This document shows positions 24,316-39,439 of a stretch of DNA of 39,439 nt, piece by piece. A model generated the notes under the pieces. That model worked only from the letters and a program-made list of their open reading frames with translations, had not been told where the DNA came from and searched no databases. The first letter of the stretch is position 1, and each line of letters begins with the position of its first letter. A program made the position numbers and the translations under genes. Origin of the DNA: Neisseria sp. 83E34 (GTDB taxonomy: Bacteria > Pseudomonadota > Gammaproteobacteria > Burkholderiales > Neisseriaceae); contig NZ_LGYH01000013.1 of the NCBI RefSeq assembly GCF_001308015.1, positions 1 to 39,439 of the forward strand, given 5' to 3'.

Positions 24316-25155
24316 ATGCCTGAAAATAAGCATAAGGCAGGGCATGTTAGGCAGGGAAAAAAACAAAGCCAGCCGTTTTGGCAGGCCGACAAACCTTATT
24401 TGCATGAACATCATATCAGCGATGCACGTTTCCGTTTGCTGGGTTATGTGATGGCTTTTTTGGCCGGGGCAATTAATGCGGGTGGTTTTTTTGCGGTTGC
24501 CCGCTATACCTCGCATGTGACGGGTGAAATGTCTTTTGCTGCGGATATGATGTACACGCGGGAATGGCAGGCCGTAATCGTGGCTATGTTGGGCGTTGTG
24601 AGTTTTATTATGGGGGCAGCACATTCGAGCTGGGTAATTTTGTGGACACAACGGCAGCGTTTTCGTGGTAGTTTCGGTTTGTCGATGTGGTTGGAAGGAC
24701 TGTATCTATTGTTCTTTGGTTTTCTAGGTTTGACCGAGGTAGAATGGAGCGGCGGCGCCTGGCCTTCGATTGCTATGCTTTTGCTGTGTTTTATTATGGG
24801 TATGCATAATACGGTGATGACGATTTTGTCTGGTGGCGTTATCCGTTCTACGCATATGACAGGCACGGTTACCGATTTGGGTATCGAAATCTCCAAAGTT
24901 CTGTATTATAGTCGTAGTGATAATCCCAAAATACCTAATGTGAATGTGAACAAACCAAAGATGAAGTTGCTGTGCGGTCTGATGATAGCCTTTGTGGCTG
25001 GTGGTTTTATCGGTGCATGGGGATATCATACGGTGGGACATCATTTTGCTTTGCCTGTGTCGTTAGTGCTGTTTATATTGGGATTCGGTTCGGTAGGTTA
25101 TGATGTGCGACTGAGGATTAAATGGTGGTTGATTGCTCGCTTGAAAAAGCGGTAA
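24316..25155 (+). CDS. DUF1275/YoaK family membrane protein
   Basis: A 279-residue inner-membrane protein of the YoaK/DUF1275 family, with several helices (FRLLGYVMAFLAGAINAGGFF at about 40-60, given as FRLLGYVMAFLAG and AINAGGFF; VIVAMLGVVSFIMGAAHSSWV; WPSIAMLLLCFIMGMH) and the conserved MTGTVTDLGIE segment. The start at 24316 is chosen because GGGAGG lies 5 bases upstream; the frame extends further but without a site. Function is unproven in the family; a transport role is often suggested. It sits at the right edge of the housekeeping block. Confidence 0.85.
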   Translation: MPENKHKAGHVRQGKKQSQPFWQADKPYLHEHHISDARFRLLGYVMAFLAGAINAGGFFAVARYTSHVTGEMSFAADMMYTREWQAVIVAMLGVVSFIMGAAHSSWVILWTQRQRFRGSFGLSMWLEGLYLLFFGFLGLTEVEWSGGAWPSIAMLLLCFIMGMHNTVMTILSGGVIRSTHMTGTVTDLGIEISKVLYYSRSDNPKIPNVNVNKPKMKLLCGLMIAFVAGGFIGAWGYHTVGHHFALPVSLVLFILGFGSVGYDVRLRIKWWLIARLKKR

Positions 25156-25172
25156 AGGTTGAGCAAGGATTA

Positions 25173-25185
25173 TTCAGACAGGCAT
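25173..25185 (-). repeat. Single uptake sequence behind the DUF1275 gene
   Basis: An exact TG-wadDUS copy in minus orientation. Confidence 0.85.
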
Positions 25186-25204
25186 GGGTTATATAGCCAT
25201 AAAA

Positions 25205-25440
25205 CTATAGTGAATTAATTTAAAAATGGTACACTTTTTATATTTGGGTTTGATCTGAAGATTTTGAGTTACAAGTAGTATTGAGAAATATTCCGGTCAA
25301 GGCCGAGTACGATTCAACAGTTGTTAAGTATATTGTTTAAAGATAAATCTTTAATAAACAGGGTGTTGGTTGCTTTTTGTGCCGCCTACGGCTTGTCGCT
25401 TTTATGAGGAGTTTAGCTTCACAGCTATGTAAGTTTTCCT
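25205..25440. repeat. Possible decayed interspersed repeat in a 354-base gap
   Basis: CTATAGTGAATTAATTTAAA (25205-25224) resembles the TATAGTGGATTAA-type ends of a common Neisseria interspersed repeat, and GCCGCCTACGGCTTGTCGC near 25380 resembles part of its interior. The two halves are not obviously intact. No gene is visible in the gap. Confidence 0.35.
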
Positions 25441-25459
25441 TGTCCTTGGTTGATTTAAA

Positions 25460-25504
25460 CATAATAAAATGCCTGTCTGAATTTCAGACAGGCATTTTAT
25501 TATG
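25460..25504. terminator. 45-base palindrome built on paired uptake sequences, behind wzc
   Basis: The arms 25460-25481 and 25483-25504 are perfect reverse complements around a single T. The core is two uptake sequences and the outer part adds CATAATAAA / TTTATTATG. It lies 5 bases beyond the wzc stop and separates the polysaccharide locus from the DUF1275 gene. Confidence 0.8.
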
Positions 25505-25509
25505 TTGAT

Positions 25510-27654
25510 TTACTTACCAGTATAAGTTTGATATTGGTAGTAGTTGCGTGCAGTACGCTCCACACCATTAAAGATTACGCCTTCAACTTTAATACCAGCG
25601 TTATTCAGACGGCTCATGCTGTCTTCCAGCTCATCATGGGAAGTTTTTCTATAACGAGCGATCAATAAAGTTAAATCAGCAACTCGGCCAATGATAGAGC
25701 TATCGGTTACAGCCAATACAGGAGGAGTATCGATAATTACATAATCGTATTTATCTTTGGCAGTTGCAATAAACTCTTTAAATTTATCACTCATTAACAT
25801 CTCAGACGGGCTTTGTGGCGAATGACCGCGAGAAATGAAATCCAGACCTGGAACATCGGTATGTTTGATGCTGGCATCAAAAGTTGATGAACCATCTAAA
25901 ATTTCAGCCAAACCATTTTCTTCAGTTAAACCGAAAGAATGGTGCAGCATGCCACGGCGTAAGTCAGCGTCGACCAGTAATACCCGTGAACCTGCTTGGG
26001 CCGTAACCGTCGCCAAGTTAGAAGAAACAAATGATTTGCCTACACCAGGAGTGGTGCCGGCGATCATAATCATGCTGCTCTTGTTGTTAATGGTAGCAAA
26101 GTGCAGGTTGGTGCGCAGAGCGCGAATAGTTTCTACGGCAACATCGTTGGTATGGATGTTAGCGAGTAGATATTGTGGGTGTTTGCTCTTGCCTGCGCTC
26201 AAACGGTTGTAACGTTTGTCGGCTTTCATTTGGGTATTAGAAGCAGGGATTGTTGAAATTAGGTTGTAGCCCATAGCACGAATATCATCGGATACTTTGA
26301 TGGTTGGGCGTGCAATTGCGCGTAACACAAAGAGAGAAGAGGCCAGTAAACCTGCTGCAATGGCGGAAAGCAGAGTAATCATTGCACGGCGGGGTTTAAA
26401 TGGTTTTTCTTCAGCAACTGCAGGGTCTATAACGCGAATATTACCTTGAGAGCTCGCTTTTAAAATGTTCAATTCTTGTTGACGGTTTAATAATTGAACA
26501 TAAGTGGCCTGGTTGATTTCTACGTCGCGGTTCAATCGGATAACTTCTTGCTCGGTTTGCGGCAAGGTAGAAATTTGGCGGTTAATACGGTCTCTAGCTT
26601 CTTCCAATACTTTCAAACGATCGCGGACAGATTTGTAAGAAGGATGCTCTGGCGTGTAAAGCTCTGACATGCCAGCCTCTTCTGCACGTAGGGTCGTAAT
26701 CTGGGTTTCTATGTCTGTTAAGCTGCGGAGCGCACCTTGGGCTTCTGATGGAATATCAACTGAGCCGGTATTGGTACGGTATTGGTTTAATTTAGTTTCT
26801 GCATCTTGCAAAGATTGTTTTAGACGAGGCAATTCTTCGCTGATAAATGCTAAACCACTTGTCGCCATTTGAACATCACGGTTTTTATTTTGGCTCACAT
26901 AGTTGTCTATAATATGATTAAGGACAGTTTCAATTTTTTTTCTTTCTGTGCCGGTATAGCCTAAAGTAATCAGAGGGCTGCCTTCACCTTGCGCACTTAC
27001 AGATAAATTGTCGGTGATATTGTTAATGGCTTTTAAGCGGGAAAGCTTGGTAATCGAAAAAGACTGTCCGGTTTCCGCAAGGATTTGATTGATAAAGAAT
27101 TCACCATTATTAGAAAATTTTAGGGGTTTACCTACCTTGCCCTCTAAGGACTCACCATCAGGAGTGGTTAAAATATAAGAATTTGGGCTTTCTACTTTTA
27201 ATCCAAAGGTTTGGTTTTCAAAGTCTTCTGGTACGGTAAAGCGTTCAACTTTAATTGTAGGTTGGCCAGCATTGCTGAACTTGGCTAATGTAGAACCAAT
27301 TATGGGGGTGTAAGCAGGTTGGATGTCTAAGTCTAGTTGAAGATTATCAACCGTTTGACCGATAACCGAGCGTGACTTGATTAAGTCAATCTCAGCGTCT
27401 GGGCTTGAACCATTCATACCTCTTTGAGGTAGGGCTCCAGCATTTAATTGGGGTAAAATTTGATTGCTTTGCACTTCTACTGCAAGTAAGGCGTCCGCGC
27501 GATACACAGGTTGGGCGGACATACTATAGAGACCGCCAACAATGAAACCTGCTGCAATAGCGGTTCCGATAGGTAATTTATGGCGATACAAAATAGTCAA
27601 TAATTGACGTAAATCAATCGAACTTTCAAATGCTTGGGTAGATTTAGTTGCCAT
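25510..27654 (-). CDS. wzc: Polysaccharide co-polymerase and tyrosine autokinase (Wzc)
   Basis: Inner-membrane Wzz-type chain-length regulator fused to a BY-kinase that controls polymer export. The 714-residue protein has an N-terminal Wzz domain with a helix at about 33-50 (LPIGTAIAAGFIVGGLYSM), a long periplasmic coiled region, a second helix near 425-445, then the kinase with Walker A in GTTPGVGKSF (about 530-540), Walker A' in VLLVDADLRRG and Walker B in YVIIDTPPVL. The C-terminus RNYYQYQTYTGK is the tyrosine cluster that is phosphorylated. It is last in the locus and pairs with Wzb and Wza. Confidence 0.93.
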   Translation of the reverse strand: MATKSTQAFESSIDLRQLLTILYRHKLPIGTAIAAGFIVGGLYSMSAQPVYRADALLAVEVQSNQILPQLNAGALPQRGMNGSSPDAEIDLIKSRSVIGQTVDNLQLDLDIQPAYTPIIGSTLAKFSNAGQPTIKVERFTVPEDFENQTFGLKVESPNSYILTTPDGESLEGKVGKPLKFSNNGEFFINQILAETGQSFSITKLSRLKAINNITDNLSVSAQGEGSPLITLGYTGTERKKIETVLNHIIDNYVSQNKNRDVQMATSGLAFISEELPRLKQSLQDAETKLNQYRTNTGSVDIPSEAQGALRSLTDIETQITTLRAEEAGMSELYTPEHPSYKSVRDRLKVLEEARDRINRQISTLPQTEQEVIRLNRDVEINQATYVQLLNRQQELNILKASSQGNIRVIDPAVAEEKPFKPRRAMITLLSAIAAGLLASSLFVLRAIARPTIKVSDDIRAMGYNLISTIPASNTQMKADKRYNRLSAGKSKHPQYLLANIHTNDVAVETIRALRTNLHFATINNKSSMIMIAGTTPGVGKSFVSSNLATVTAQAGSRVLLVDADLRRGMLHHSFGLTEENGLAEILDGSSTFDASIKHTDVPGLDFISRGHSPQSPSEMLMSDKFKEFIATAKDKYDYVIIDTPPVLAVTDSSIIGRVADLTLLIARYRKTSHDELEDSMSRLNNAGIKVEGVIFNGVERTARNYYQYQTYTGK

Positions 27655-27751
27655 TTATTAATTCTCTAAAAATTTGAGCGGGTTATTTTTGATAAACCAA
27701 TATTTCCAGATAGAGTTATGTGTTTAATTTAAGTTGCACTCGAAAAAATAA

Positions 27752-28186
27752 TTATTTCAGTTTTTCGGCCCATGCTTGACAGGCATTTTCTATTTGTCGA
27801 TAAATTTGATCAAATGTATCCTGACTTTTTTTGTAAGGGTCTTGTATGAACAAAGGACTGGTCCATTGACCTAAAAGCATAGTTTTACTGCGGGCTTGTG
27901 GACAAGTTAATGCAATGTCTTCAATATGCGATTCTTCCATTACTAGGATTAAGTCTGAAAACTCGCACATTTGAGGAGTTAATTGCCGTGCAATATGCGG
28001 TGATATATCTATACCATTTTTATTGGCTGATAAAACAGCTTCAGGTTCCGCTTTTCGGTTTGGTGTTGCGTTAATACCTGCCGACACAATAAATAAATCT
28101 GGCAATAGTTGTTTCAAAATATATTCTGCTGTAGGAGAACGACAAACATTGCCAGTACACACAACTAATATCTTGTCATATTTCAT
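27752..28186 (-). CDS. wzb: Low-molecular-weight protein tyrosine phosphatase (Wzb)
   Basis: Removes phosphate from the Wzc tyrosine cluster. The 144-residue protein has the C-x5-R signature CTGNVCRSP (starting at residue 10), a general acid Asp in DPYKKS, and the usual family length. It starts 11 bases beyond the wza stop, on the same strand, and wzc begins about 100 bases further on. No strong ribosome site is seen, so coupling with wza is likely. Confidence 0.93.
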   Translation of the reverse strand: MKYDKILVVCTGNVCRSPTAEYILKQLLPDLFIVSAGINATPNRKAEPEAVLSANKNGIDISPHIARQLTPQMCEFSDLILVMEESHIEDIALTCPQARSKTMLLGQWTSPLFIQDPYKKSQDTFDQIYRQIENACQAWAEKLK

Positions 28187-28197
28187 GAGGGGTGGAG

Positions 28198-29352
28198 TTA
28201 AAATGAGTTGTTTACTGCAGAAACAGTATTAGCTAAGCCAACAGCTTGAGAAACAACGCGATCCCAACGTGTAACAGGTGCGGCAGTAACATAAACCACA
28301 TCATTTGTTTGTAGCTTAAAGCGGTTGCCCAAGGCATAGGCAGTAGCATCTTTAAGGTTTAATTGATAAACGTGGATTGGTTTCTCGATATCTGATGGTA
28401 CATTTCGAATGACAAATACACCGCTTGCGTTTGCATGTATTTGATCCATGCCACCAGCTTCACTCATTGCTTCCGTTAATGTTATACCTTTAGGTGGCAT
28501 ACGCAAAGAGCTTTGGCGGGTAACTTCGCCCAAAACAAATACTTTGCTATTTTCATTAGATGGGACGTAAATAATATCTCCATCACTTAATAAATGATTC
28601 TGAGTAGCATCACCATTGGCACGCAGATCTTCAATAGAAATTGTATGATCCACACCTTTGTGCGTCCATTTTACGCTTTGTGGATCTGCTTGATCTGTAA
28701 TTCCTCCAGCCAAGTCAATAGCATCTAGCAATGTCATAGGAACGTTTGTGATGGGCAACTGGCCGGCTTGACGAACTGAGCCTGAAACACTTACACGTTG
28801 GGAACGGAATTCTGCAACGTTTACTTCAACTTGAGGGTTTTTGATGTATCTTTTCAGGCGCGAAGAAAGTTCAGATTGAACTTGGTTAATGGTTTTGCCT
28901 ACAACAGTAATCTCGCCGACAAGAGGAAAGAAAATGCGGCCATGATCATTAACCCAAATACCATTATTACTTTGTTGGTTTTGTAGTGTTGTAGAAAGTG
29001 TGCCGGCATTTGAAGAAGGTGCACCGATAGTAGCTGGTGTGTTCAAATCGGGATGATACCAAACACGAATATTAAGAACATCCCCTTTGCCTAAAGTGTA
29101 GCGATATGATGACTTTCTTTTTTCCAGCTCATGATTTGGGCGGTTAACTTTCGGAGGTGCTTCGATACTTTGCAAAAGATTAAGTGTAATAGGATAGATA
29201 TTAACCCGGCTATCCAATTGTACTTTTTCATCATCATCATTCTCATGGTGCACAACGGTCTTGTTACCTGTTGGTAAACCGGAACCAGGAACAACTGTAC
29301 AACCAGAAGCTGCAAGAATAACTGATAGGCTAATAAGAGTTAGTTTTTTCAT
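28198..29352 (-). CDS. wza: Outer-membrane polysaccharide export lipoprotein (Wza)
   Basis: Octameric outer-membrane channel for exported polysaccharide. The 384-residue protein has a lipoprotein signal with lipobox SGC (Cys at about residue 18, ILAASGCTVVPG), a polysaccharide-export domain (YTLGKGDVLNIRVWYHPDLN at about 88-107; FPLVGEITVVGKT) and SLBB-type domains after it (VSVSGSVRQAGQLPITNV; VFVLGEVTRQSSLRM). Length and domain order match Wza. It is followed directly by wzb and wzc. Confidence 0.94.
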   Translation of the reverse strand: MKKLTLISLSVILAASGCTVVPGSGLPTGNKTVVHHENDDDEKVQLDSRVNIYPITLNLLQSIEAPPKVNRPNHELEKRKSSYRYTLGKGDVLNIRVWYHPDLNTPATIGAPSSNAGTLSTTLQNQQSNNGIWVNDHGRIFFPLVGEITVVGKTINQVQSELSSRLKRYIKNPQVEVNVAEFRSQRVSVSGSVRQAGQLPITNVPMTLLDAIDLAGGITDQADPQSVKWTHKGVDHTISIEDLRANGDATQNHLLSDGDIIYVPSNENSKVFVLGEVTRQSSLRMPPKGITLTEAMSEAGGMDQIHANASGVFVIRNVPSDIEKPIHVYQLNLKDATAYALGNRFKLQTNDVVYVTAAPVTRWDRVVSQAVGLANTVSAVNNSF

Positions 29353-29454
29353 ATTTACTAAGATTCCTTACTTAAGGTAAGCCCGTTTTTTAGGCGGTAT
29401 CATCATTATATTTGTATATTATTTAGTAATCGGGTGTACGCTTCATAGAGTAAT

Positions 29455-31365
29455 TTAGGATTGTTGATGAGCTTGCTTTGCCATCCACACCAAATCGCAA
29501 ATGTCATCTTTAGGTTTGAAACCTGTTGGGGCTTCGAGCAATAGTTCACGAACGGTTAACTGATCGCCTTTTGAGCAGGCTTCATCCATTTTCTCTAATA
29601 TATCAGAAAGATCTTGCCATGGAAGCATTATTTCATTAGCGGTCATAATGCGAGGGTGAGTGGTTTTTTCGACAGCGTCGCCGATTAATAGTTCTTCATA
29701 AAGCTTTTCTCCTGGGCGTAGGCCTGTAATTTTGATTTCGATGTCTCCTGTTGGATTGTTACCATCTTTTACTTCTAACCCACTTAAACGAATCATTTGG
29801 CGTGCTAAATCAATAATTTTTACTGATTCTCCCATGTCTAAGACAAATACATCACCTCCTTTACCCATTGCACCTGCTTGGATAACTAATTGAGCAGCTT
29901 CTGGGATAGTCATGAAATAACGAGTAATATCTTGGTGGGTTAATGTTATCGGGCCTCCAGAAGAGATTTGTTTTTCAAAAACTGGAACCACAGATCCTGA
30001 AGAGCCGAGAACATTCCCAAAGCGTACCATAGCAAAACGTGTATTATGGTTTTTCTCTGCTGCCAATGCTTGAAGTACCAATTCGGACATGCGTTTGGAG
30101 GCGCCCATGGTGTTGGTTGGACGAACAGCTTTGTCTGTAGAAATTAAGACAAAAGTCTCAACTTTTGCATTAATCGCCGCTAAAGCGCAGAACATGGTGC
30201 CATAGATATTGTTGCGGACGCCTTCTAATGTGTTGAATTCGACGATTGGTACATGTTTGTAAGCTGCTGCATGATATATGGTTTGCACGCTAAACGCCGT
30301 CATTACATTGTATAAGCGTTTGCGGTGTTGTACAGAACCGAGAAGTGGAATAATCTCAAGTTGCATTTGGTTTGCTTCTATGTATTCGCGCAATTCCTTG
30401 TCAATACTGTATAAAGAAAATTCTGATAGCTCGAATAAGATTAATTTTTTCGGATTGTTCTGAATAATCTGGCGACACAGCTCTGAGCCAATGGAACCTC
30501 CGGCACCAGTTACCATAACGACTTTATTATTAATATCAGCACTCATCAGTTCAGCTTTGGGTGCGACGGGATCGCGGCCGAGTAAGTCAAATACAGAAAT
30601 TTTGCGCAATGAACTAACACTGATTTTGCCATCCACCAGCTCTTTCATGCCGGGCATTGTTAATACTTCGCATGGATATGGCTCTAGAGAGTGGATGATT
30701 TTTTTGCGCTCTTCTTGAGATGCACTTGGAATGGCGAGTAGGATTTTTTCTACATGATATCTTTCGATTAGTTCTGGTATGCTGCTAGGTAGATGTACAG
30801 TTATATTGTTAATAATATTTTTTTGTAGCGAAGGATTGTCATCTACAAAGGCAACGGCATGATATTCATTAACTTGTTTGACGGCTTCTAAAAGTTGGCG
30901 TCCAGACTGGCCTGCGCCGTAAATAATAACGGGTGCCATTGTTTTGGTGTTTCTGCGACCGTTTAAAATTGCACGTAGGACAAAACGAGAACCACATGTC
31001 AGAACCAACATTAATAAAAAGTAAACAAAAGAAGGCAACCAATCTATGCGTTGATGGGATATGCCTAGACACATAGTCATGATTATGGTAGACAAAAGGC
31101 TGCCTAATACGGCAGTAGTAATTACTTTTGTGCCCATAAAACGAGTGACAGCCCGATATAAGCCAAGCTTGATAAAGAAAGTAATCGTCAAAACAGCGGT
31201 TATGATGAATACAATCCAATTGCCGATAGCCAACCACTCTTGTGAATAGTTTGATTTTAAACTCAAGCTAAACCAAAACGTGAGGAAGATAATTAATGTG
31301 TCATGTATAACGAAGAATGCTTTTTTGATGCTTCGCGGTAATGAGAGTAGGTATGCTAAATTCAT
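29455..31365 (-). CDS. pglD: Membrane-bound UDP-GlcNAc 4,6-dehydratase type protein (PglD/CapD/FlaA1-like)
   Basis: Converts UDP-GlcNAc to the 4-keto-6-deoxy sugar, the first step toward bacillosamine-like diamino sugars. The 636-residue protein has four N-terminal membrane helices (about 15-135), a first Rossmann region (VIIYGAGQSGRQLLEAV), and the dehydratase domain with GAGGSIGSEL (about 284-293), YHAAAYKHVP and STDKAVRPTN, where the TDK motif replaces the Tyr of ordinary SDR proteins. The paired PglC-like aminotransferase lies upstream, with a 262-base gap. The UDP-GlcNAc substrate is inferred from family. Confidence 0.88.
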   Translation of the reverse strand: MNLAYLLSLPRSIKKAFFVIHDTLIIFLTFWFSLSLKSNYSQEWLAIGNWIVFIITAVLTITFFIKLGLYRAVTRFMGTKVITTAVLGSLLSTIIMTMCLGISHQRIDWLPSFVYFLLMLVLTCGSRFVLRAILNGRRNTKTMAPVIIYGAGQSGRQLLEAVKQVNEYHAVAFVDDNPSLQKNIINNITVHLPSSIPELIERYHVEKILLAIPSASQEERKKIIHSLEPYPCEVLTMPGMKELVDGKISVSSLRKISVFDLLGRDPVAPKAELMSADINNKVVMVTGAGGSIGSELCRQIIQNNPKKLILFELSEFSLYSIDKELREYIEANQMQLEIIPLLGSVQHRKRLYNVMTAFSVQTIYHAAAYKHVPIVEFNTLEGVRNNIYGTMFCALAAINAKVETFVLISTDKAVRPTNTMGASKRMSELVLQALAAEKNHNTRFAMVRFGNVLGSSGSVVPVFEKQISSGGPITLTHQDITRYFMTIPEAAQLVIQAGAMGKGGDVFVLDMGESVKIIDLARQMIRLSGLEVKDGNNPTGDIEIKITGLRPGEKLYEELLIGDAVEKTTHPRIMTANEIMLPWQDLSDILEKMDEACSKGDQLTVRELLLEAPTGFKPKDDICDLVWMAKQAHQQS

Positions 31366-31592
31366 AATATTTAATAGCTTATGGTTTAGTAGTCGTTATA
31401 GAGGATTCAATTGGATATCTCTATTTTGAAAAATATTTTCCAGTTCGAGCCGATTTACTTTTATTTGCGTAATTTTAAATCTTGTTAGAGCATTGGAAGA
31501 TAGGATACTTTATTTGAAAGTGAAGAGAAATATTTGCTGGATAAATGGTTTATTTTGGGAATAAAACGTTAAATTGATGTAAATGTTGTGAT

Positions 31593-31615
31593 GCCGCCTG
31601 CCTGAGGCTGGCGGC
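31593..31615 (-). terminator. Possible hairpin behind the aminotransferase gene
   Basis: GCCGCC-T-GCC-TGA-GGC-T-GGCGGC forms a stem with one T-T mismatch, about 13 bases beyond the aminotransferase stop. The T-run on the minus-strand side is weak. The rest of the 262-base gap to 31366 shows no gene. Confidence 0.45.
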
Positions 31616-31627
31616 TTGATTTTAAAT

Positions 31628-32803
31628 TTAAGAGGAAGCTTTGGTAAGAACATTGTGCAAATGCTTGCAACAAAAATCTATTTGCTCTTCTGTGATTGTC
31701 GGATGTACGAGGAACATCAAGCTGGTTTCTCCTAATTCCACTGCATTTTTTAAGCGTTTTTGGGGACGCCAAGGAGTGTTGTCGAAAGCTTTTTCTAAAT
31801 ATACTTCAGAGCAGCTTCCTTGATAGCAGGGAACCCCTGCATCATTTAATTCATCTATAATACGGTCGCGCGTCCAGTCTTTTGATAATCGTTCGGGTTT
31901 GACGAACGCGTAATATTTATATTGGGCGTGTTGAATATAGTCAGGTACTTCGACGGTTCTGATGAAGTCAAATTGTTTTAGCACTTCTTCTAATCGTGCT
32001 GCATTGGCTTGTCTTTTAGCGGTCCAGTCAGCCATGCGCTTCAGTTGGATTCTGCCTATGACTGCTTGCATTTCTGTCATACGCCAGTTTGTGCCGAAGC
32101 TTTCATGCAGCCAGCGGAAACCGGGAGGGTGCTGGCGGTTGTAAACGGCATCATAGCTTTTTCCATGATCTTTATAAGACCACATTTTCGACCATAATTC
32201 TTTGTCATTGGTGGTTACCATGCCGCCTTCTCCACCTGTTGTCATGATTTTGTCTTGGCAGAAAGACCAAGCACCAATATGCCCGATAGAGCCGACCGAT
32301 TTTCCTTTATAACGGGTTCCGTGCGCTTGAGCGCAATCTTCAATAACCCACAGTTTATGTTTTTCAGCTAGTGCCATGATGGCGTCCATTTCAGCGGGCA
32401 TGCCAGCCAAATGAACAACAATGATGGCTTTGGTGTTTGGTGTGAGTACGGCTTCTATGGTTTCAGCTGTGATATTTTGGCTGTTCAAGTCAACATCGGC
32501 AAATACGGGATTTGCGCCGGCAGTGACGATAGAAGAGGCTGAAGCGAGAAAAGTGCGGGAAGTAACGATAACATCATCACCAGCGCCGATGCCTACAGCT
32601 TTCAGGGCTACATCTAAAGCCAGAGTACCGTTGCCTAGAGTGATGGCATATTCTGTGCCTGCCCATTGTGCGAATTCTTTTTCAAATTCACGGCATTCTG
32701 TACCTGTCCAGTAATTGACTTTGTTTGATAACAATACGCGGGAAACGGCGTCTGCTTCTTCTTGTGTAAAGCAAGGCCATGGTGCCAATGAGGTGTTTAA
32801 CAT
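31628..32803 (-). CDS. pglC: PLP-dependent sugar aminotransferase (PglC-like, DegT/DnrJ family)
   Basis: Adds an amino group at C4 of the keto sugar from the dehydratase. The 391-residue protein has the family fold with ALGNGTLALDVALKAVGIG-like phosphate region (ITLGNGTLALDVALKAVG), VDLNSQNI, EDCAQAHG, and the PLP lysine in SFCQDKIMTTGGEGG (about residue 184). AAGGAAAATAC lies before the ATG. It follows the phosphoglycosyl transferase gene by about 100 bases. The C4 specificity is inferred from similarity to meningococcal PglC. Confidence 0.88.
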   Translation of the reverse strand: MLNTSLAPWPCFTQEEADAVSRVLLSNKVNYWTGTECREFEKEFAQWAGTEYAITLGNGTLALDVALKAVGIGAGDDVIVTSRTFLASASSIVTAGANPVFADVDLNSQNITAETIEAVLTPNTKAIIVVHLAGMPAEMDAIMALAEKHKLWVIEDCAQAHGTRYKGKSVGSIGHIGAWSFCQDKIMTTGGEGGMVTTNDKELWSKMWSYKDHGKSYDAVYNRQHPPGFRWLHESFGTNWRMTEMQAVIGRIQLKRMADWTAKRQANAARLEEVLKQFDFIRTVEVPDYIQHAQYKYYAFVKPERLSKDWTRDRIIDELNDAGVPCYQGSCSEVYLEKAFDNTPWRPQKRLKNAVELGETSLMFLVHPTITEEQIDFCCKHLHNVLTKASS

Positions 32804-32900
32804 TGTATTTTCCTTAATTTATACTTAATTGGAAGAGTTGCAAGGGTTTGAAACCTTTTGCAATTTTCTTTTGTTTGTTGTTTTCCCGTGTAGTTGAGGT

Positions 32901-33515
32901 TTATTGGTCTTCTTTTTTTGTGCCGGTAAATTTATTCATCGTGGCTTCTCCTTCTGCTTCGATACCTTCTTTGATGAATACTTTTTTTACGGTTAGGAAT
33001 AGTATTTTCAAATCAAGCCAGAATGAACGGTTATCTACATACCATACATCCAATTTGAATTTTTCTTCCCATGAAAGTGCGTTGCGGCCATTGACTTGAG
33101 CCCATCCGGTTATTCCTGGGCGCACATCGTTTCGACGTCGTTGTTCGTCATCGTAGTGCTCCAGATATTCCATTAGCAAAGGACGGGGGCCGACCAAACT
33201 CATGTCACCTTTTAATACATTCCATAATTCCGGCAATTCGTCTAGGCTGGTAGCACGCAGGGCTTTGCCAAACGGGGTGAGGCGTTCCCCGTCAGGCAAG
33301 GGGTTGCCGTCTTTGTCTACTGCGTCGCGCATAGAGCGAAACTTAATCATTTCAAAGGGTCTACCGTCCTTGCCCGGTCTGATCTGACGGAAAAGAACCG
33401 GAGAACCTAGGTTTTTGCGCACAAAAAAAGCAACGATTAACAATACAGGAAACAAAAATAAAAGGCCGAAGAAAGCGCAAATGATGTCGAAAAGGCGTTT
33501 GATAATGTCTGACAT
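32901..33515 (-). CDS. Undecaprenyl-phosphate phosphoglycosyl transferase (PglB/PglC-type), single domain
   Basis: Puts the first sugar phosphate on undecaprenyl phosphate. The 204-residue protein has one N-terminal membrane segment (about 8-30), FRQIRPGKDGRPFEMIKFRSM (shown as FRQIRPGKDG, MIKFRSM), the catalytic Asp-Glu pair in LDELPELWN, and DMSLVGPRPLL. It ends soon after ARGITGWAQVNGRNALSWEE-type residues and a short acidic tail. Meningococcal PglB has a second domain (acetyltransferase) that is absent here, so this is the monotopic form. TAGGATCATC precedes the ATG. Confidence 0.87.
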   Translation of the reverse strand: MSDIIKRLFDIICAFFGLLFLFPVLLIVAFFVRKNLGSPVLFRQIRPGKDGRPFEMIKFRSMRDAVDKDGNPLPDGERLTPFGKALRATSLDELPELWNVLKGDMSLVGPRPLLMEYLEHYDDEQRRRNDVRPGITGWAQVNGRNALSWEEKFKLDVWYVDNRSFWLDLKILFLTVKKVFIKEGIEAEGEATMNKFTGTKKEDQ

Positions 33516-33536
33516 GATGATCCTATTTTAGTATCT

Positions 33537-33569
33537 ATGCCTGTCTGAAACATTTTTTCAGACAGGCAT
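33537..33569. terminator. Uptake-sequence hairpin inside the polysaccharide locus
   Basis: A 14-bp stem (33537-33550 with 33556-33569) and 5-base loop CATTT, between a glycosyltransferase gene and the phosphoglycosyl transferase gene. No T-run follows on the minus strand, so termination is likely partial, and the locus may be two transcripts. Confidence 0.55.
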
Positions 33570-33596
33570 TATTGTTATGAGAGGGGTCTGAAACAA

Positions 33597-34727
33597 TCAG
33601 ATATTCATATTCCGCAGCATAAAATCGTTGATGATGTTTACATCGTATTTGGTTTTAACAATTTCCAAAGAGGCCTGCCGCATACTTTCGATTAAATCGG
33701 GCTGGGTAATGAAACGCTCCATTGCTTCTGCCAATTTTTCCGAAGATTGTACTGGAACAAGGAAGCCATTATAGCCATCGTCAACGGTCTGGCGGCAGCC
33801 GGGTGCATCAGTGGTAATGATTGCACGACCAGTGGCCATGGCTTCCAATACGGTACGCGGCGTGCCTTCTCTGTAAGAAGGTAAAACAAAAACATGGCAG
33901 GCATTCAGGGCGGGGCGTACGTCGCTTAACTTTCCCCAAAATTTTATTGTTCCTTCATTAACCCATTGATCAAGCTCTGCTTGTGTTACCGAACTGGGGT
34001 TGATATCGATAAACCCAACCATATTGAACACTGCATGTGGGTGTTTTTGTTTAACTTTTCTTGCAGCATCAACATATTCCCGAACACCTTTGTCTTTGAG
34101 CAGCCGACCGATAAGTAGAAAGTGGATTTCATTCCCTTCAGGCAGCGGTTGTGGGGAGAATTTCTCTGTGTTGACTCCGGAGCCATTCACCACAATCGTA
34201 TGTTGGCCGGGAGAGGTAATGCCCAAATCGGCGAATAGTTTTTGGTCATCGTCATTTTGGAAAAAAGTTACTTCCGCAGAGGCTAAAGCTTGTTTATACA
34301 AGCCGCGTGTGATTCTGCGGATCCAGCTTTTGGCGGCGCTGTTATCGGTATCTTGAAAAGCATATCCTAATCCGGTAATTAGGGCTATGCGGTGTGGCAC
34401 ACCTGTCGATTTTGCTGCTAACATACCGTATATAACCGGTTTGATGGTGTAGGCCAAAACGTAATCAGGCTTGATTTGCTGCATCAATTGGCGTAATGCG
34501 AGCAAAGTTTTGAAATCTTCTAGCGGATTGGTGCCTGTGCGTTGCATTGGTACATTATGCAGAATGAATCCTTGAGCTTGGAGCTTTTCACGGGTTGGTA
34601 TATCTTGCAAAATTTCAGGCGCGGCGATATGCACTTCCAAACCTTTAGCTTGTACGGCGCAGATTAAATCCCAGCGAAAATTCAAAACAGATTCGGCAAA
34701 GCCGGCAATCATCAGAAATTTTTTCAT
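33597..34727 (-). CDS. Glycosyltransferase, GT4 family (PglA-like)
   Basis: Adds a sugar to the lipid-linked intermediate at the cytoplasmic face. The 376-residue GT-B protein has the N-terminal MKKFLMIAGFAESVLNFRW, a donor-site segment FLLIGRLLKDKGV (about 208-220) and the C-terminal EX7E region REGTPRTVLEAMATG (about 290-304). It is similar in layout to bacillosamine-directed alpha-1,3 glycosyltransferases such as Campylobacter PglA. Donor and linkage are not determined. AATTAGGGAAA precedes the start. It is the third of three glycosyltransferases in transcription order. Confidence 0.85.
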   Translation of the reverse strand: MKKFLMIAGFAESVLNFRWDLICAVQAKGLEVHIAAPEILQDIPTREKLQAQGFILHNVPMQRTGTNPLEDFKTLLALRQLMQQIKPDYVLAYTIKPVIYGMLAAKSTGVPHRIALITGLGYAFQDTDNSAAKSWIRRITRGLYKQALASAEVTFFQNDDDQKLFADLGITSPGQHTIVVNGSGVNTEKFSPQPLPEGNEIHFLLIGRLLKDKGVREYVDAARKVKQKHPHAVFNMVGFIDINPSSVTQAELDQWVNEGTIKFWGKLSDVRPALNACHVFVLPSYREGTPRTVLEAMATGRAIITTDAPGCRQTVDDGYNGFLVPVQSSEKLAEAMERFITQPDLIESMRQASLEIVKTKYDVNIINDFMLRNMNI

Positions 34728-34766
34728 TGTATTTCCCTAATTATTTATCGTTGTTGTGTAAATTGA

Positions 34767-34781
34767 ATGCCTGTCTGAAAA
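34767..34781 (+). repeat. Single uptake sequence between glycosyltransferase genes
   Basis: An exact TG-wadDUS copy, one of only three such copies inside the polysaccharide locus. Confidence 0.85.
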
Positions 34782-34787
34782 GCCGGG

Positions 34788-35849
34788 TCAACTGGTTGCT
34801 GCCTTACGGAGCAGCTCAGATAAGCGTGGGGCTGTTTTTTGAATGCAGAATAAATTTTCAGCGTCTTGACGTCCGCGTGCTCCATAGCGTTGCCGCATAT
34901 TTGGGTCTTGCAACAAAGTTTTGAGTGCGTTCAGCCAGCCGGCATCATTTTTTACTAAAAATCCGTTGGCATCAGGCTCGACAATATTTTTATTTGCACC
35001 TACATCAGAACCAACTACCGGTAATCCGCAAGCCATGTATTGAATAAGTTTGTAACCGCATTTTCCATTGGTCCACGGTGTATCAGGTAAAGGCATAATG
35101 CCGATATCACATTCGGCAACGAGAGGTACTTCGGTATTTTCCGCCCAATCGAGACATTCGGTATCGACTCCCGGAATATTCAGCTTGGCTCCGATGATGC
35201 GTAATTTATAAGGAATTTCTTTCGCTAAATCAGACAAAGGCCGGGCAATATCGTTAACATATTGTGCGGTTGACGGCGAACCAATCCACACAATAATCGG
35301 TATCTGATTAACTTTTTCGTCATTGGTAAAATAGCGGTCAATATCAATCACGGTTGGAATAATTTCTACCCATTTCGCCACGGCTTGATGCGCTCTGTCG
35401 GCTAAATATTGATTGCCGCATATAACAAGTTTGGCAGAGGCCATTAAAGTATCTAAGCGTTTACCAAATACTTTACGCACGATTGGCAGACGGTGCATAT
35501 CATAATTGTGGAAGAGAGCATCGTCATAATCCAATACATACGGAACGCCGGATAACAAAAGTTTTTCGAACCATGCGGGTGTCCACGGTAGAGCCTCTTT
35601 TTCAATCCAAATTAAATCGTATTGATCTTTTGCTGCTTGGAGCAAACGAATGCGGTTCCAATAAGTTTGGAACATTTCGTTGTTGCTATATGATTGTTTG
35701 CTGTATTTGGCAGTTAAAGCTTCATCGCTGATTAAGGGGAAAACATCGCAATGGATGCCGCTTTGCTCCAGCCAAGGCACATATTGCATAGTACGCAGGC
35801 GAGAAGATGCACCCTTGGGACCGTATTTTGTAAGCATCAGAATTTTCAT
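34788..35849 (-). CDS. Glycosyltransferase, GT4 family
   Basis: A 353-residue GT-B glycosyltransferase starting MKILMLTKYGPKGASSRL. The start at 35849 is chosen because it overlaps the upstream gene stop as ATGA and the family-like N-terminus begins there; the frame runs 20 codons further but into the neighbour. It has IVWIGSPSTAQYV (about 205-217) and a C-terminal donor region CGYKLIQYMACGLPVVGSDVG (given as CGYKLIQYMA, GLPVVGSDVG), where the first Glu of the EX7E pattern is Lys. Sugar specificity is unknown. Confidence 0.8.
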   Translation of the reverse strand: MKILMLTKYGPKGASSRLRTMQYVPWLEQSGIHCDVFPLISDEALTAKYSKQSYSNNEMFQTYWNRIRLLQAAKDQYDLIWIEKEALPWTPAWFEKLLLSGVPYVLDYDDALFHNYDMHRLPIVRKVFGKRLDTLMASAKLVICGNQYLADRAHQAVAKWVEIIPTVIDIDRYFTNDEKVNQIPIIVWIGSPSTAQYVNDIARPLSDLAKEIPYKLRIIGAKLNIPGVDTECLDWAENTEVPLVAECDIGIMPLPDTPWTNGKCGYKLIQYMACGLPVVGSDVGANKNIVEPDANGFLVKNDAGWLNALKTLLQDPNMRQRYGARGRQDAENLFCIQKTAPRLSELLRKAATS

Positions 35850-36793
35850 CGGGTCTGGCCTTTCAATACGGCGGGTAAAGCTTTCCATAACATGGCATAA
35901 CCTGCCCAAGTGTTTTTAACATCGGCAGTAGAACCTTTAAGTAAAGCTAAAACTGAGCGGGAGAAAGGTTCTATAAGTAATGTGACTGCAGTAATGCCGA
36001 CTGCTTTAATAAAAGACATATGGGTAAAGCTGTAAATAAGCCGACTACGCAAAGAATAAAACAAGCGTGTGGCTTTTACTTGGCTTGATGTACCCCCTCC
36101 TGCGTGAAATGCTTGCGCGTCAGCTAAATACATGCTTTTGTAACCGGCTTGCTTGGTACGGTATGCCAAATCAAGATCTTCAAAGTAAACGAAGAAGCGT
36201 TCGTCGAAACCTTTGAGTTGTTCAAAAATAGAACGGCGCATGAAGTAGAAAGCACCAATAACTTGATCTACTTCTCTTGTGGTCATGTGATCCCAATCAC
36301 CCATATGCATATGCATCGATTTAAAGAATTTGAAAGGCAGTTTGTTTAGACCTAAAGCATTTACAGTAAAAGTAGTAAAGGAAGGGAATCGTGTACAGCT
36401 GCGTGCGACGTGATTATTCTCTTCCAATAATTGAATACCGCATATGCCGACATTTTGGTTTTCAGGACGCTCCATATATTCATATGGAACCCTGAGAGAG
36501 TCTTCAAATAGCTGCGCATCAGGATTCAGAAACAAAATATATTTACTGTTGCAAATCGCCGCGCCTTGATTACACGCCGCACCAAAGCCATTATTGGTTT
36601 GGTTCTTGATGACTTCTAATTTGAAAGGAAAATCATTGCCTAATTGTTCAACCAATTCAATTGAGTTATCTGAAGAATGGTTATCGACAATAGCTACAGT
36701 ACCTACCAGATTGTTATGGTATTTAATAATACTGGCAACTGCATCACGAAGCAGGCTGCCGGCATTCCAGTTCACAAAAACAATATCTATCAT
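35846..36793 (-). CDS. Glycosyltransferase, GT2 family (WbbL-like)
   Basis: A 315-residue GT-A glycosyltransferase. MIDIVFVNWNAGSLLRD is a typical WbbL-type start; a TTG six codons upstream is less likely. FLNPDAQLFED (about 95-105) supplies the metal-binding acidic pair, and FFVYFEDLDLAYRTKQAGYK (in parts FVYFEDLDLAYR, QAGYK) the catalytic acidic region. A C-terminal hydrophobic segment (AVGITAVTLLIEPF) may associate with the membrane. It overlaps the next gene by 4 bases. Rhamnosyl transfer is possible but not shown. Confidence 0.82.
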   Translation of the reverse strand: MIDIVFVNWNAGSLLRDAVASIIKYHNNLVGTVAIVDNHSSDNSIELVEQLGNDFPFKLEVIKNQTNNGFGAACNQGAAICNSKYILFLNPDAQLFEDSLRVPYEYMERPENQNVGICGIQLLEENNHVARSCTRFPSFTTFTVNALGLNKLPFKFFKSMHMHMGDWDHMTTREVDQVIGAFYFMRRSIFEQLKGFDERFFVYFEDLDLAYRTKQAGYKSMYLADAQAFHAGGGTSSQVKATRLFYSLRSRLIYSFTHMSFIKAVGITAVTLLIEPFSRSVLALLKGSTADVKNTWAGYAMLWKALPAVLKGQTR

Positions 36794-36816
36794 AATGATG
36801 TTCGGTTCCAAAATGT

Positions 36817-38013
36817 TTAATTGGTTATAAGTCTGCTTTGATGGGTGACCGGAGCAGTTTGTTCAAATTTTTGTGCTTCAAGCCTTTGCAATTGATTGAA
36901 AAAGGCAATAGCAAATAAGGTTATTGGTGTCATCCTCCAGTAAATCAAATTGGAGAAGCCTATTTCGAAGAATAAATAAATTAAAATCAAGAAATAAGCA
37001 TATCTGCTATCCACGTTGCGTAGCATGAATCTGCAGAAAGCAAAAATAATTGCCAGTGCACCTACAATTGAGTTACGTAGTGAGTATTCCAAATAGCCTG
37101 AATCGCCATACATATATTCGGTGGTGTATCCAAAACCAATACCTTGGAGAGGGTGGTTAAAGATATATTCAAGGTTATTGGCCAAGTTGCCACCCTCTGC
37201 ATATCTTCCACCCAAGCCATTGTTTTCAGATAATAGTTTGTCAATAGCGGAGCCGATGAGGTCGCTTGCAAATGGAAGTGCGATAACCAATGCGAGCAAT
37301 TCCAAGCTGTATATAATGTAGGCAATGTGTTTGTTGTATTTGTATAACTCTGATTGTAAAATAATCAGGGAGGCAATGAGTAATGCTAAAGACGTTGCCG
37401 ATTGTAGGAAGAATAAAAAGATCAAGAATAAAATGGTAGCCAATAAAAATCTTTTTTGATGTGTATATTTAAAGGCCATTATATTTAATAAGACAAACAT
37501 AAAGTCGTAAAAGCCCGCGACTGAATGTGTACCGAAAATGGTTACAGGCTTTAACTGGAATAACATATTCGGAATCAAATCATCATAGAATGATGAGTAG
37601 TATTCTCGTATTATTTCAGTGATTGCAGGTATTTCTAAAATAATACCGATTGATAACGTTGAGAAAAAAATATTAGCAATCGTAAGGGTATGTAAATATC
37701 CTTTTAAGTTTAATGGATTATGGTTGGTATTGATTAGGGTAAAGAAAAAGAAAACAATAAAATATAAACCATTACCGTATTTATAAGTGTAGTATTTTGA
37801 AAGAACAGTAAAGACTGTAATGGCAACGCCAAAACCTAACCCTATGAATAAATTGACTATATCTATCTTTTTTTGTCTGAATAATAGGATAAATAAGAAT
37901 ATCAGACTAATGAAAGACAAAGTAACCCCGGAGGTAGAAGAAATCACACCTCCGATTGAAGCTGGAGCCATAATCCCTATTAGGAATAAAGTAAAAATTA
38001 AATAATTATTCAT
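36817..38013 (-). CDS. wzy: Wzy-type polysaccharide polymerase-like membrane protein
   Basis: A 398-residue membrane protein with about ten hydrophobic stretches and a large hydrophilic loop around 255-300 (ENNGLGGRYAEGGNLANN, HPLQGIGFGYTTEYM), as in O-antigen and exopolysaccharide polymerases. Sequence identity in this family is low, so the call rests on topology, the GGR and HPLxGIGFG-like loop, and position next to the flippase. Its ATG overlaps the flippase stop (ATGA). It would join repeat units in the periplasm. The linkage is unknown. Confidence 0.75.
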   Translation of the reverse strand: MNNYLIFTLFLIGIMAPASIGGVISSTSGVTLSFISLIFLFILLFRQKKIDIVNLFIGLGFGVAITVFTVLSKYYTYKYGNGLYFIVFFFFTLINTNHNPLNLKGYLHTLTIANIFFSTLSIGIILEIPAITEIIREYYSSFYDDLIPNMLFQLKPVTIFGTHSVAGFYDFMFVLLNIMAFKYTHQKRFLLATILFLIFLFFLQSATSLALLIASLIILQSELYKYNKHIAYIIYSLELLALVIALPFASDLIGSAIDKLLSENNGLGGRYAEGGNLANNLEYIFNHPLQGIGFGYTTEYMYGDSGYLEYSLRNSIVGALAIIFAFCRFMLRNVDSRYAYFLILIYLFFEIGFSNLIYWRMTPITLFAIAFFNQLQRLEAQKFEQTAPVTHQSRLITN

Positions 38014-39317
38014 AACTGAAGTGTTCTGTCTGTAGAAGGCTTACTACTTGATTTTTTGCAAGCCATCATTAGTAAGCTTAAATCTAAAGCCATCCTGGCC
38101 GACCAAGCTATTGCCGCACCCATAATATCGAATTTCAGTAATGCGAAGTATAAAAATGCAAAATAGATTGGAAATTCTATCATGTGAAATTTGGCTGTAA
38201 CCGAAGCTTTGCCCAAAGCGTGTAACTGGGAATAGAACAGGGCGGAAAGAGAATTGAGAAATACGCCTGCACATAATATTTGCCCAACTAAAACAGACTC
38301 GGGATGAAATTCGTCTTTAAGCCAGAATTTGAGTATATACGGCATTAAAAATGCCATAGTAGACGACATTACCAACATTAAAGCGCCTACGCGGAACAGC
38401 CAGGTTTGGAAATATTTTTGCCAATTATCAGGCTGCTCCTGCATTAAGCGGGAAAGAGAAGGAAAAATAACAGAATTGATGGCCGTAACTAAAATCAAAC
38501 TTTGGGCTACCAATTCAAAAGGAACCACATATATGGTTACAGCAGCAGCTGAGAGCAGAGCTGCGATCATGAAGCGGTCTAACTGAACCATCATTGGGCT
38601 CAAAATGCTGCTTACAGTTACCCAGCCGCCGAAAGAAAACAGCGTTTTGGCAACTTGGGATGAGTAAACCAACTGGTTGGGATTGTAATTCGGTTCGTTT
38701 CTTTTCATGCATGAAAATGCTAGATGGCGGAAAAGCTGTAGCGATACAACACGGCTGACAACCAAGCTGGCGATAATCCATGCCAAATCTTGGGTGAAAT
38801 AAGAAATGATCAAAGGACCGGCAAAGTTAATGGTGCCGAGTAATACTCGCAGAATACTGATGCCCTTGAAGTTCATATAGGCTTCATTCATGCCGCGGTA
38901 GGTTGCGCTCATAGCCTGTGTCGGTAAGGCAATCGCTAAAAGTAAGACGGCATTACGGATTTCTGACTGGGGGATATGTTCGGTTTTGATTAATCCACTG
39001 CAACCGAATAGCGCAAAAAGGACAATACCTAAGCTGCCTACCAAACCTGCAGTCATGGTAATACGGGACGCGGTGGCCAAGACAACGGGAATTTGATCAG
39101 GATTTTTCTGACCGCGTAGTTTGGAAACCATTTGTGTCAGTGCGCGACCGATGCCTAAGTCAAGGACGCCGGCGTAGGTCATCATTGCCCATGCTAGAGC
39201 CAACAGGCCGAAACGTTCATTGCCGATGTTGGCTATCAATTTAGGAATGGAAACCAGGGCGATGAGTAAGGGAAGCGCCAGGCCGGCCATATTCCAGCTA
39301 ATATGCGACAGTTTCAA
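38010..39317 (-). CDS. wzx: Wzx-type polysaccharide flippase (MOP superfamily)
   Basis: A 435-residue protein with about twelve to fourteen membrane helices of the polysaccharide flippase family: MAGLALPLLIALVSIPKLIANIG (about 10-32, shown as LALPLLIALVSIPKLIANIG), FGLLALAWAMMTYAGVLDLGIGRAL (in parts), and DRFMIAALLSAAAVTIYVVPFE. It carries a TTG start with GAGAG upstream; an ATG ten codons in is the alternative. It should flip the undecaprenyl-linked repeat unit to the periplasm. It is first in the locus. Confidence 0.87.
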   Translation of the reverse strand: MKLSHISWNMAGLALPLLIALVSIPKLIANIGNERFGLLALAWAMMTYAGVLDLGIGRALTQMVSKLRGQKNPDQIPVVLATASRITMTAGLVGSLGIVLFALFGCSGLIKTEHIPQSEIRNAVLLLAIALPTQAMSATYRGMNEAYMNFKGISILRVLLGTINFAGPLIISYFTQDLAWIIASLVVSRVVSLQLFRHLAFSCMKRNEPNYNPNQLVYSSQVAKTLFSFGGWVTVSSILSPMMVQLDRFMIAALLSAAAVTIYVVPFELVAQSLILVTAINSVIFPSLSRLMQEQPDNWQKYFQTWLFRVGALMLVMSSTMAFLMPYILKFWLKDEFHPESVLVGQILCAGVFLNSLSALFYSQLHALGKASVTAKFHMIEFPIYFAFLYFALLKFDIMGAAIAWSARMALDLSLLMMACKKSSSKPSTDRTLQL

Positions 39318-39335
39318 GGTGTACTCTCTTTTAGT

Positions 39336-39385
39336 TTAAATCAGGTTGTTTGATATAAAATTTATCAATCATCAGCCTGATTTAA
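39336..39385. promoter_or_regulatory. 10-bp inverted repeat upstream of the flippase gene
   Basis: TTAAATCAGG (39336-39345) and CCTGATTTAA (39376-39385) are exact reverse complements 30 bases apart, in the AT-rich region from 39318 to the window end, where the locus promoter is expected. It could be an operator. No clear -35/-10 pair or JUMPstart-type sequence is seen. Confidence 0.3.
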
Positions 39386-39439
39386 GATATTTTGTATTTG
39401 ATAATAAAGATTTGAACCAAATAAATAAATTCTTAAAAT

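Follow-up and report, generated by a model that had tools for sequence, protein, structure and literature searches.

Introduction

In Acinetobacter baumannii, K units feed both the capsule and PglL (PMC6333632), and no ligase-type protein other than PglL was detected (PMC3628348). For Neisseria, a protein glycosylation (pgl) core locus has been defined (PMC6959607), and in N. sicca 4320 a putative lipopolysaccharide (LPS) cluster has been described in which wzx, wzy, glycosyltransferase (GT), aminotransferase-like, epimerase-like, wza, wzb and wzc genes lie together (PMC3078933). What we take from these and other papers given by PMC number comes from excerpts of them, unless the main or whole text is named. 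Here we analyze an eleven-gene locus of Neisseria sp. 83E34 (genome label G000), located at 25510–39317 of the window, by which we mean the whole stretch analyzed, positions 1–39439 of contig NZ_LGYH01000013.1. Judged by gene content, the locus is the pgl core of the genome and, at the same time, an export locus of the Wzy/Wza/Wzb/Wzc type. We consider it rather probable that one lipid-linked oligosaccharide, initiated with di-N-acetylbacillosamine (diNAcBac), feeds an exported Wzy polymer and PglL alike.

The locus resembles the A. baumannii K locus in its Wzx, candidate Wzy, Wza, Wzb and Wzc genes, in that PglL is encoded elsewhere and in that no WaaL was found, here in a PF04932 search that could miss a divergent ligase. 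Unlike in A. baumannii, the genes for the phosphoglycosyl transferase (PGT), the aminotransferase and the dehydratase are Neisseria pgl genes, the acetyltransferase gene is unlinked, between lpxA and lpxB, and ABC-type capsule genes are also present in the genome. Sharing has been described for A. baumannii, which is the closest precedent in print, whereas here we infer it from genes. With the Neisseria pgl core locus (PMC6959607), the window locus has in common an orthologous PGT, PglC and PglD and an unlinked PglL; it differs in that PglB is split, an unrelated Wzx and three other GTs stand in place of the usual flippase and GTs, and a polymerase candidate and wza-wzb-wzc are added. The gene content is like that of the N. 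sicca 4320 cluster, but the genes there were read as O-antigen genes (PMC3078933). The Wza, Wzb and Wzc families are those of the E. coli group 1 and colanic acid export set; here, however, initiation would be by a small diNAcBac-type PGT rather than by WbaP or WcaJ.

A pathway shared between capsule and O-glycan is of a known kind; for Neisseria, the two halves are reported apart in the open-access papers considered here. In the main text of PMC6959607, 'wza' is absent and 'wzy' occurs solely in a reference title. In a supplement legend of that paper, the pgl genes include one described as 'O-antigen ligase like', one for a HAD hydrolase and one for a formyl transferase; one locus in our survey (L057) has genes that fit these, namely wzy and those for a HAD protein and a formyl transferase. 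Conversely, 'pgl' is absent from the text of PMC3078933. Excerpts of that paper report chain-length and Wza homologues in N. mucosa ATCC 25996, and its Table 2 marks N. polysaccharea, N. lactamica and N. cinerea as lacking the chain-length and Wza genes. Excerpts of four further papers (PMC11130364, PMC9239064, PMC9140248 and PMC5542703) contain no link between pgl and a Wzy/Wza-type locus, and in searches of an open-access library we recognized no publication that joins the Neisseria pgl and Wzy export loci.

Results

Layout of the locus

The eleven open reading frames all lie on the minus strand, and all are open. Read from 39317, they are:

38010–39317, minus strand: wzx, MOP-family flippase, 435 residues, TTG start (PF01943, 71.5 bits)
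36817–38013, minus strand: candidate wzy-like polymerase, a membrane protein of 398 residues, weakly assigned (homologues match PF04932 below cut-off)
35846–36811, minus strand: glycosyltransferase family 2 (GT2 family match)
34788–35909, minus strand: glycosyltransferase group 1, GT4 type (GT4 family match)
33597–34727, minus strand: second glycosyltransferase group 1, GT4 type (GT4 family match)
32901–33515, minus strand: PGT lacking an acetyltransferase domain, orthologue of the PglB PGT domain (PF02397; best solved relative 8g1n)
31628–32803, minus strand: PglC-type aminotransferase (DegT family; best solved relative 7l7x, 604 bits)
29455–31365, minus strand: PglD-type UDP-GlcNAc 4,6-dehydratase, 636 residues (PF02719; best solved relative WlaL 5bju, 294 bits)
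28198–29352, minus strand: wza, outer-membrane polysaccharide export protein (Poly_export/SLBB)
27752–28186, minus strand: wzb, low-molecular-weight tyrosine phosphatase (LMWPc; catalytic-loop sequence CTGNVCRS)
25510–27654, minus strand: wzc, tyrosine autokinase and copolymerase (Wzz/GNVR/AAA_31; Walker A, A' and B motifs; four tyrosines among the last 20 residues)
25459–25505, no strand assigned: inverted repeat with two uptake-sequence copies just past wzc (terminator-like in the scan, on the plus strand only)

In profile searches with Pfam and NCBIfam, ten of the eleven products match a family above its curated cut-off, the exception being the polymerase-like frame. Wza scores 418 bits against NF011658 (cut-off 333); Wzc scores 654 bits against NF008568, under the cut-off of 1068. 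The earlier note on this DNA had described an eleven-gene, Wzy-dependent Wza/Wzb/Wzc locus in a Neisseria-type genome. The eleven genes and the genus stand: the window Wzc is 98% identical to that of N. wadsworthii 9715 (G040) and 86% identical to that of a Neisseria metagenome-assembled genome, and copies of a Neisseria uptake sequence are present. A host outside Neisseria was rejected; the genome is that of N. wadsworthii or of a species very close to it. As to the Wzy-dependent route, Wzx, Wza, Wzb and Wzc are borne out by family; the Wzy assignment is weak, its homologues matching below cut-off. The kind of locus is not new, given that the N. sicca 4320 cluster had already been published (PMC3078933).

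On its upstream side the locus is truncated by the contig end at 39439. In N. wadsworthii 9715, five extra sugar genes lie between ribD and wzx; by their families they read as rmlB-, rmlA- and rmlC-type genes, a UDP-sugar dehydrogenase and an epimerase.

The sugar genes are orthologous to pgl genes

We compared the window PGT, aminotransferase and dehydratase with the genes at the same position in other loci of the genus, Wzc-less ones included. Identities are 64–100% for the PGT (35 loci), 67–98% for the aminotransferase (36 loci) and 60–96% for the dehydratase (36 loci). At the Wzc-less loci the ranges are 71–76% (8 loci), 78–83% (8) and 62–69% (7), respectively, except in G017, where the values are 64, 67 and 60%. 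Judged by sequence, the three are orthologues of pglB (the PGT part), pglC and pglD, which bears out the earlier note's description of pgl-type sugar genes. Its wider statement, that the first part of the locus resembles the pgl set, holds for these three genes only; the GTs, Wzx and Wzy are not the usual pgl ones. The window Wzx and GT2 match only their own clusters and are not orthologous to the flippase or GTs of other Neisseria pgl loci, and the two GT4 proteins show weak similarity to the GT clusters of pgl type (best E 9e-8, 24% identity). Which of these clusters is PglF, PglG or PglH was assigned from gene order. Close relatives of the window wzx, wzy and three GTs occur, among the loci fetched, only in G040, G006, G029 and G028, and the wzx/wzy/GT cassette of N. 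wadsworthii differs from that of most Wzc-bearing genomes.

The best solved relative of the window PGT is a diNAcBac-1-phosphate transferase (8g1n), and that of the dehydratase is WlaL, which we take to be C. jejuni PglF. The relative of the aminotransferase, the Psychrobacter enzyme 7L7X, makes UDP-2-acetamido-4-amino-2,4,6-trideoxy-D-glucose (PMC8040287). In the pgl-only genome G009, PglB also bears an acetyltransferase domain (L073), which the window PGT lacks. Contig C1 of G000 encodes a stand-alone PglB-type acetyltransferase of 218 residues (L087:1111–1767), flanked by genes that we read as lpxA and lpxB. Among solved structures, the 'Pilin glycosylation protein' 4m98 is closest to it (191 bits). 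Of six fused PglB domains compared with it, five are 44–47% identical and the sixth 56%; for three stand-alone proteins encoded at PGT loci (L040, L044 and L070), identity is 55–60%. The solved relatives of the aminotransferase, dehydratase and PGT, together with this unlinked acetyltransferase, lead us to predict a complete UDP-diNAcBac pathway in this genome.

PglB thus appears split in G000, with its second half in a lipid A operon. The acetyltransferase-less locus had also prompted us to consider a free-amine sugar, FucNAc4N-like, in a zwitterionic polymer; this was rejected, as the unlinked PglB-type acetyltransferase was found and the aminotransferase matches a characterized enzyme of the diNAcBac route.

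A single initiation set and an intact PglL

The G000 assembly is listed as 100% complete. It contains one PF02397 PGT, at this locus, and one PF01943 flippase, the window wzx. PF02719 matches one PglD-type dehydratase (430.6 bits) and four weaker proteins (45–63 bits), all above cut-off. The one PF00953 protein is MraY by sequence and neighbor, and no WecA-type enzyme was found. Searches of the genome with PF02397, PF01943 and PF02719 gave no sign of a further set of genes dedicated to pgl outside this locus.

The earlier note had suggested looking for PglL elsewhere in the genome. An intact PglL, unlinked to the locus, is encoded at L063:6628–8433 and matches PF04932, PF11846 and PF15864. Since there is one initiation set in G000, the donor of PglL, if PglL works, most likely starts at this locus. 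That the sole pgl-type initiation genes lie here and that PglL is present had been missed. The earlier note had also taken the product to be a surface polymer different from the ABC-dependent meningococcal capsule. Because the sole pgl-type initiation genes found lie here and PglL is present, a surface polymer and a protein glycan are not alternatives; both are likelier to come from one lipid-linked oligosaccharide.

These data bear on the possibility that the locus serves a polymer only, a Wzy-dependent capsule or exopolysaccharide, with PglL idle or acting on another donor. Such a locus would account for complete wzx, wza, wzb and wzc genes with a wzy candidate, and for the fact that, compared with the pgl-type flippase, Wzy and GTs, Wzx and Wzy are unrelated and two GT4 proteins are weakly related. 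We nevertheless consider it unlikely: PglL is intact with conserved residues, whereas decay would be expected of an idle PglL, and, MraY apart, the searches of the genome yielded no further PGT.

A second possibility, put forward for N. sicca 4320 (PMC3078933), is an LPS O-antigen locus, the polymer of which would be joined to lipid A-core. The similar gene content favors it. Against it, PglL is the sole PF04932 protein found in the genome and no WaaL-type ligase was detected with this model, although the same model misses the window wzy and a divergent ligase could escape. Wza/Wzb/Wzc, moreover, is a capsule-type exporter. An equivalent finding on ligases led the authors of PMC3628348 to infer that A. 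baumannii has no O antigen. We regard an O-antigen locus as quite improbable.

The genome also contains five PF05159 matches, which we take to be KpsC/KpsS-type genes, all on contig C38 and none within the window. The Wzy-dependent route is therefore distinct from an ABC-dependent capsule, as the earlier note held. ABC-type capsule genes on C38 are in line with a report that places N. wadsworthii among species with cps genes (one isolate, region A interrupted; PMC6202450).

The polymerase candidate

The frame at 36817–38013 has no Pfam or NCBIfam match at E 0.001. Two homologues in relatives, 68% and 52% identical, score 21.9 and 20.8 bits against Wzy_C (PF04932), below the cut-off of 31.7. 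A crude hydropathy scan gives about eight separate hydrophobic stretches in the product. The label 'Wzy' is thus a weak assignment, drawn from the position of the gene, the topology of its product and the low-scoring family matches of its homologues. Pairwise BLAST between one Wzy of each type found nothing.

The locus across the genus and family

We surveyed 46 Neisseria genomes, G000 included, of which 41 were graded good. Wzc is present in 30 (29 of the good ones) and a PF02397 PGT in 45, and the PglL frame is intact in all 46. In every Wzc-bearing genome a PGT lies 6.2–10.0 kb from wzc, and in 28 of them it is the sole PGT. Fifteen of the 16 Wzc-less genomes have one PGT; the incomplete G030 (68%) has none. 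A second, shorter PF04932 frame of Wzy type was found in 27 of the 30 Wzc-bearing genomes (24 above cut-off, three below) and in none of the 16 others (Fisher p 1e-9, uncorrected for kinship). The three Wzc-bearing genomes without it, G000, G006 and G040, have their wzy in the weakly matching group; in G016, the Wzy-type frame and wzc are on different contigs.

The usual order at Wzc-bearing loci is flippase, GTs and Wzy, PGT, modification genes, aminotransferase, dehydratase, wza, wzb and wzc. At the one locus annotated with Pfam for them (L057), the modification genes encode an ATP-grasp protein, a HAD hydrolase and a formyl transferase. This gene-order table covers 29 of the 30 Wzc-bearing loci, the contig-truncated locus of G016 being treated separately; its rows are incomplete in places, where overlapping frames preferred by the ORF picker hide genes or where a stretch ends. 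Fifteen Wzc-less loci have a PGT, and 11 of them were fetched. Eight of these keep all or most of the usual order, L070 and L071 differ, and L069 is truncated by its contig; wzy and wza-wzb-wzc are absent from all 11. A ribD-type flank occurs at 8 of the 11 Wzc-less loci. In the N. wadsworthii group, N. wadsworthii 9715 included, each of the four upstream stretches that were fetched has it too. No ribD is seen in the remaining Wzc-bearing stretches: most stop at or just before the flippase and five have another upstream neighbor, so that a common site is not supported for them.

Loci without wzy and wza-wzb-wzc raise the question whether the window locus, too, serves protein glycosylation only, with wzy and wza-wzb-wzc as unused relics. 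The pgl orthology of the PGT, aminotransferase and dehydratase would agree with this, as would a split wzc in G014 and a split wzy in G042. In the window, however, wza, wzb and wzc are open and the catalytic motifs of Wzb and Wzc are present, and across the genus Wzc is widespread and co-occurs with the Wzy-type frame. Unused relics are therefore very unlikely.

Beyond the genus, Wzc was found in 5 of 37 other genomes of the family. In one (G054), PGT, aminotransferase and dehydratase genes lie near wza-wzb-wzc. BLAST detected none of the three in the fetched stretches, some on short contigs, around the five Wzc loci of the other four genomes. One of the family genomes, G065, from another genus of Neisseriaceae, has two Wzc genes in different settings (L101 and L102). 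Separately, contig C44 of G028 (L126) carries two adjacent PglL-type genes, 62% and 35% identical to the G000 PglL.

Trees of the dehydratase and PglL

In a tree of the PglD-type dehydratase (37 genomes: 29 of 30 Wzc-bearing, 8 of 16 Wzc-less), all Wzc-bearing rows fall on one side of a single branch, implying one change (100/98). In a tree of the unlinked PglL (42 genomes; the four incomplete genomes G030–G033 omitted), the Wzc-less genomes fall in separate groups among the Wzc-bearing ones, implying four changes, three of them forced by well-supported branches. Both trees lack an outgroup. An aminotransferase tree (three changes) was not used, as it contains a likely wrong paralogue in G027 (branch length 10). 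The PglL tree suggests repeated loss of Wzc; the PglD-type tree does not. Recombination at the locus or long branches could produce the conflict.

One tentative reading is that the Neisseria pgl locus is a stripped-down Wzy capsule locus: the ancestor of the genus would have carried a single shared locus, and lineages with pgl only, among them the pathogens (published as lacking it), would have lost wzy and wza-wzb-wzc repeatedly, so that their genes for sugar assembly came to serve PglL alone. The disagreement between the two trees speaks against this reading, and we hold it with some doubt.

Other features of the window and genome

The window contains 30 copies of TGCCTGTCTGAA on both strands, six within 25155–39439 and 24 in the rest. 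This is presumably the uptake-sequence dialect named after N. wadsworthii. The sole window copy of the classic GCCGTCTGAA lies at 25604–25613, inside wzc near its 3' end. In the whole G000 genome, 373 copies of the classic form were counted, versus 9 of a reversed control, and those listed first appear clustered by position. Four such stretches (L149, L150, L151 and L152, on contigs C1, C9 and C11) have classic and own copies in ratios of 9:2, 12:6, 11:3 and 13:0; on visual inspection, they contain YD-repeat (Rhs-like) and primase-like genes. They are perhaps islands imported from another Neisseria dialect.

Promoter-like matches are at chance level (36 versus a shuffle mean of 37.9), and terminator-like matches number 19 versus a shuffle mean of 13.0 (standard deviation 3.3). 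An Rfam search returned two tRNAs only.

Discussion

The model of one oligosaccharide with two outlets starts from features seen in the sequence: gene content, the orthology of the PGT, aminotransferase and dehydratase to pglB, pglC and pglD, the single initiation set, the intact PglL and the acetyltransferase. The dehydratase, the aminotransferase and the unlinked acetyltransferase would make UDP-diNAcBac, and the PGT would place diNAcBac onto undecaprenyl phosphate. Three glycosyltransferases may then lengthen the lipid-linked glycan to about four sugars, and Wzx would flip the undecaprenyl diphosphate-linked oligosaccharide. In the periplasm the units would have two fates: Wzy may polymerize them, with Wza/Wzb/Wzc controlling length and export, or PglL, encoded elsewhere, may move a single unit to proteins. 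Enzyme specificities, the repeat unit, polymerization, export and the use of this donor by PglL are predictions of the model. Published data on N. mucosa count in its favor: a protein glycan is reported from one strain (ATCC 19696; PMC6959607), and chain-length and Wza homologues from a different one (ATCC 25996; PMC3078933).

Several observations weigh against it. The Wzy assignment of 36817–38013 is weak. Profiles of the window-type Wzy, of the second Neisseria Wzy set and of PglL were compared and no similarity emerged, which is uninformative, since the comparison also failed for the pair that shares PF04932. The flippase search covered PF01943 only, and a divergent ligase could be missed because PF04932 misses the window's own wzy. 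Elsewhere in the genus, wzc is split into two frames in G014 (L062), and wzy and the flippase are each split in G042 (L055; assembly 85% complete). The window GTs also differ from those of the usual pgl loci. For this reason the glycan GATDH-Hex-HexNAcA-HexN, found by mass spectrometry on proteins of N. mucosa ATCC 19696 (PMC6959607), probably does not describe the glycan made here. Finally, published commensal glycopeptides carry 3–4 sugars, so long chains on proteins are not expected (PMC6959607).

O-linked protein glycosylation in bacteria has one of its main models in Neisseria. Should a single locus supply both a Wzy polymer and PglL across much of the genus, variation in commensal pgl genes would be variation in a polysaccharide too, and pgl mutants of such species may also lack a polymer. 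The dedicated pgl system of the pathogens may then be a remnant, left after loss of the polymer.

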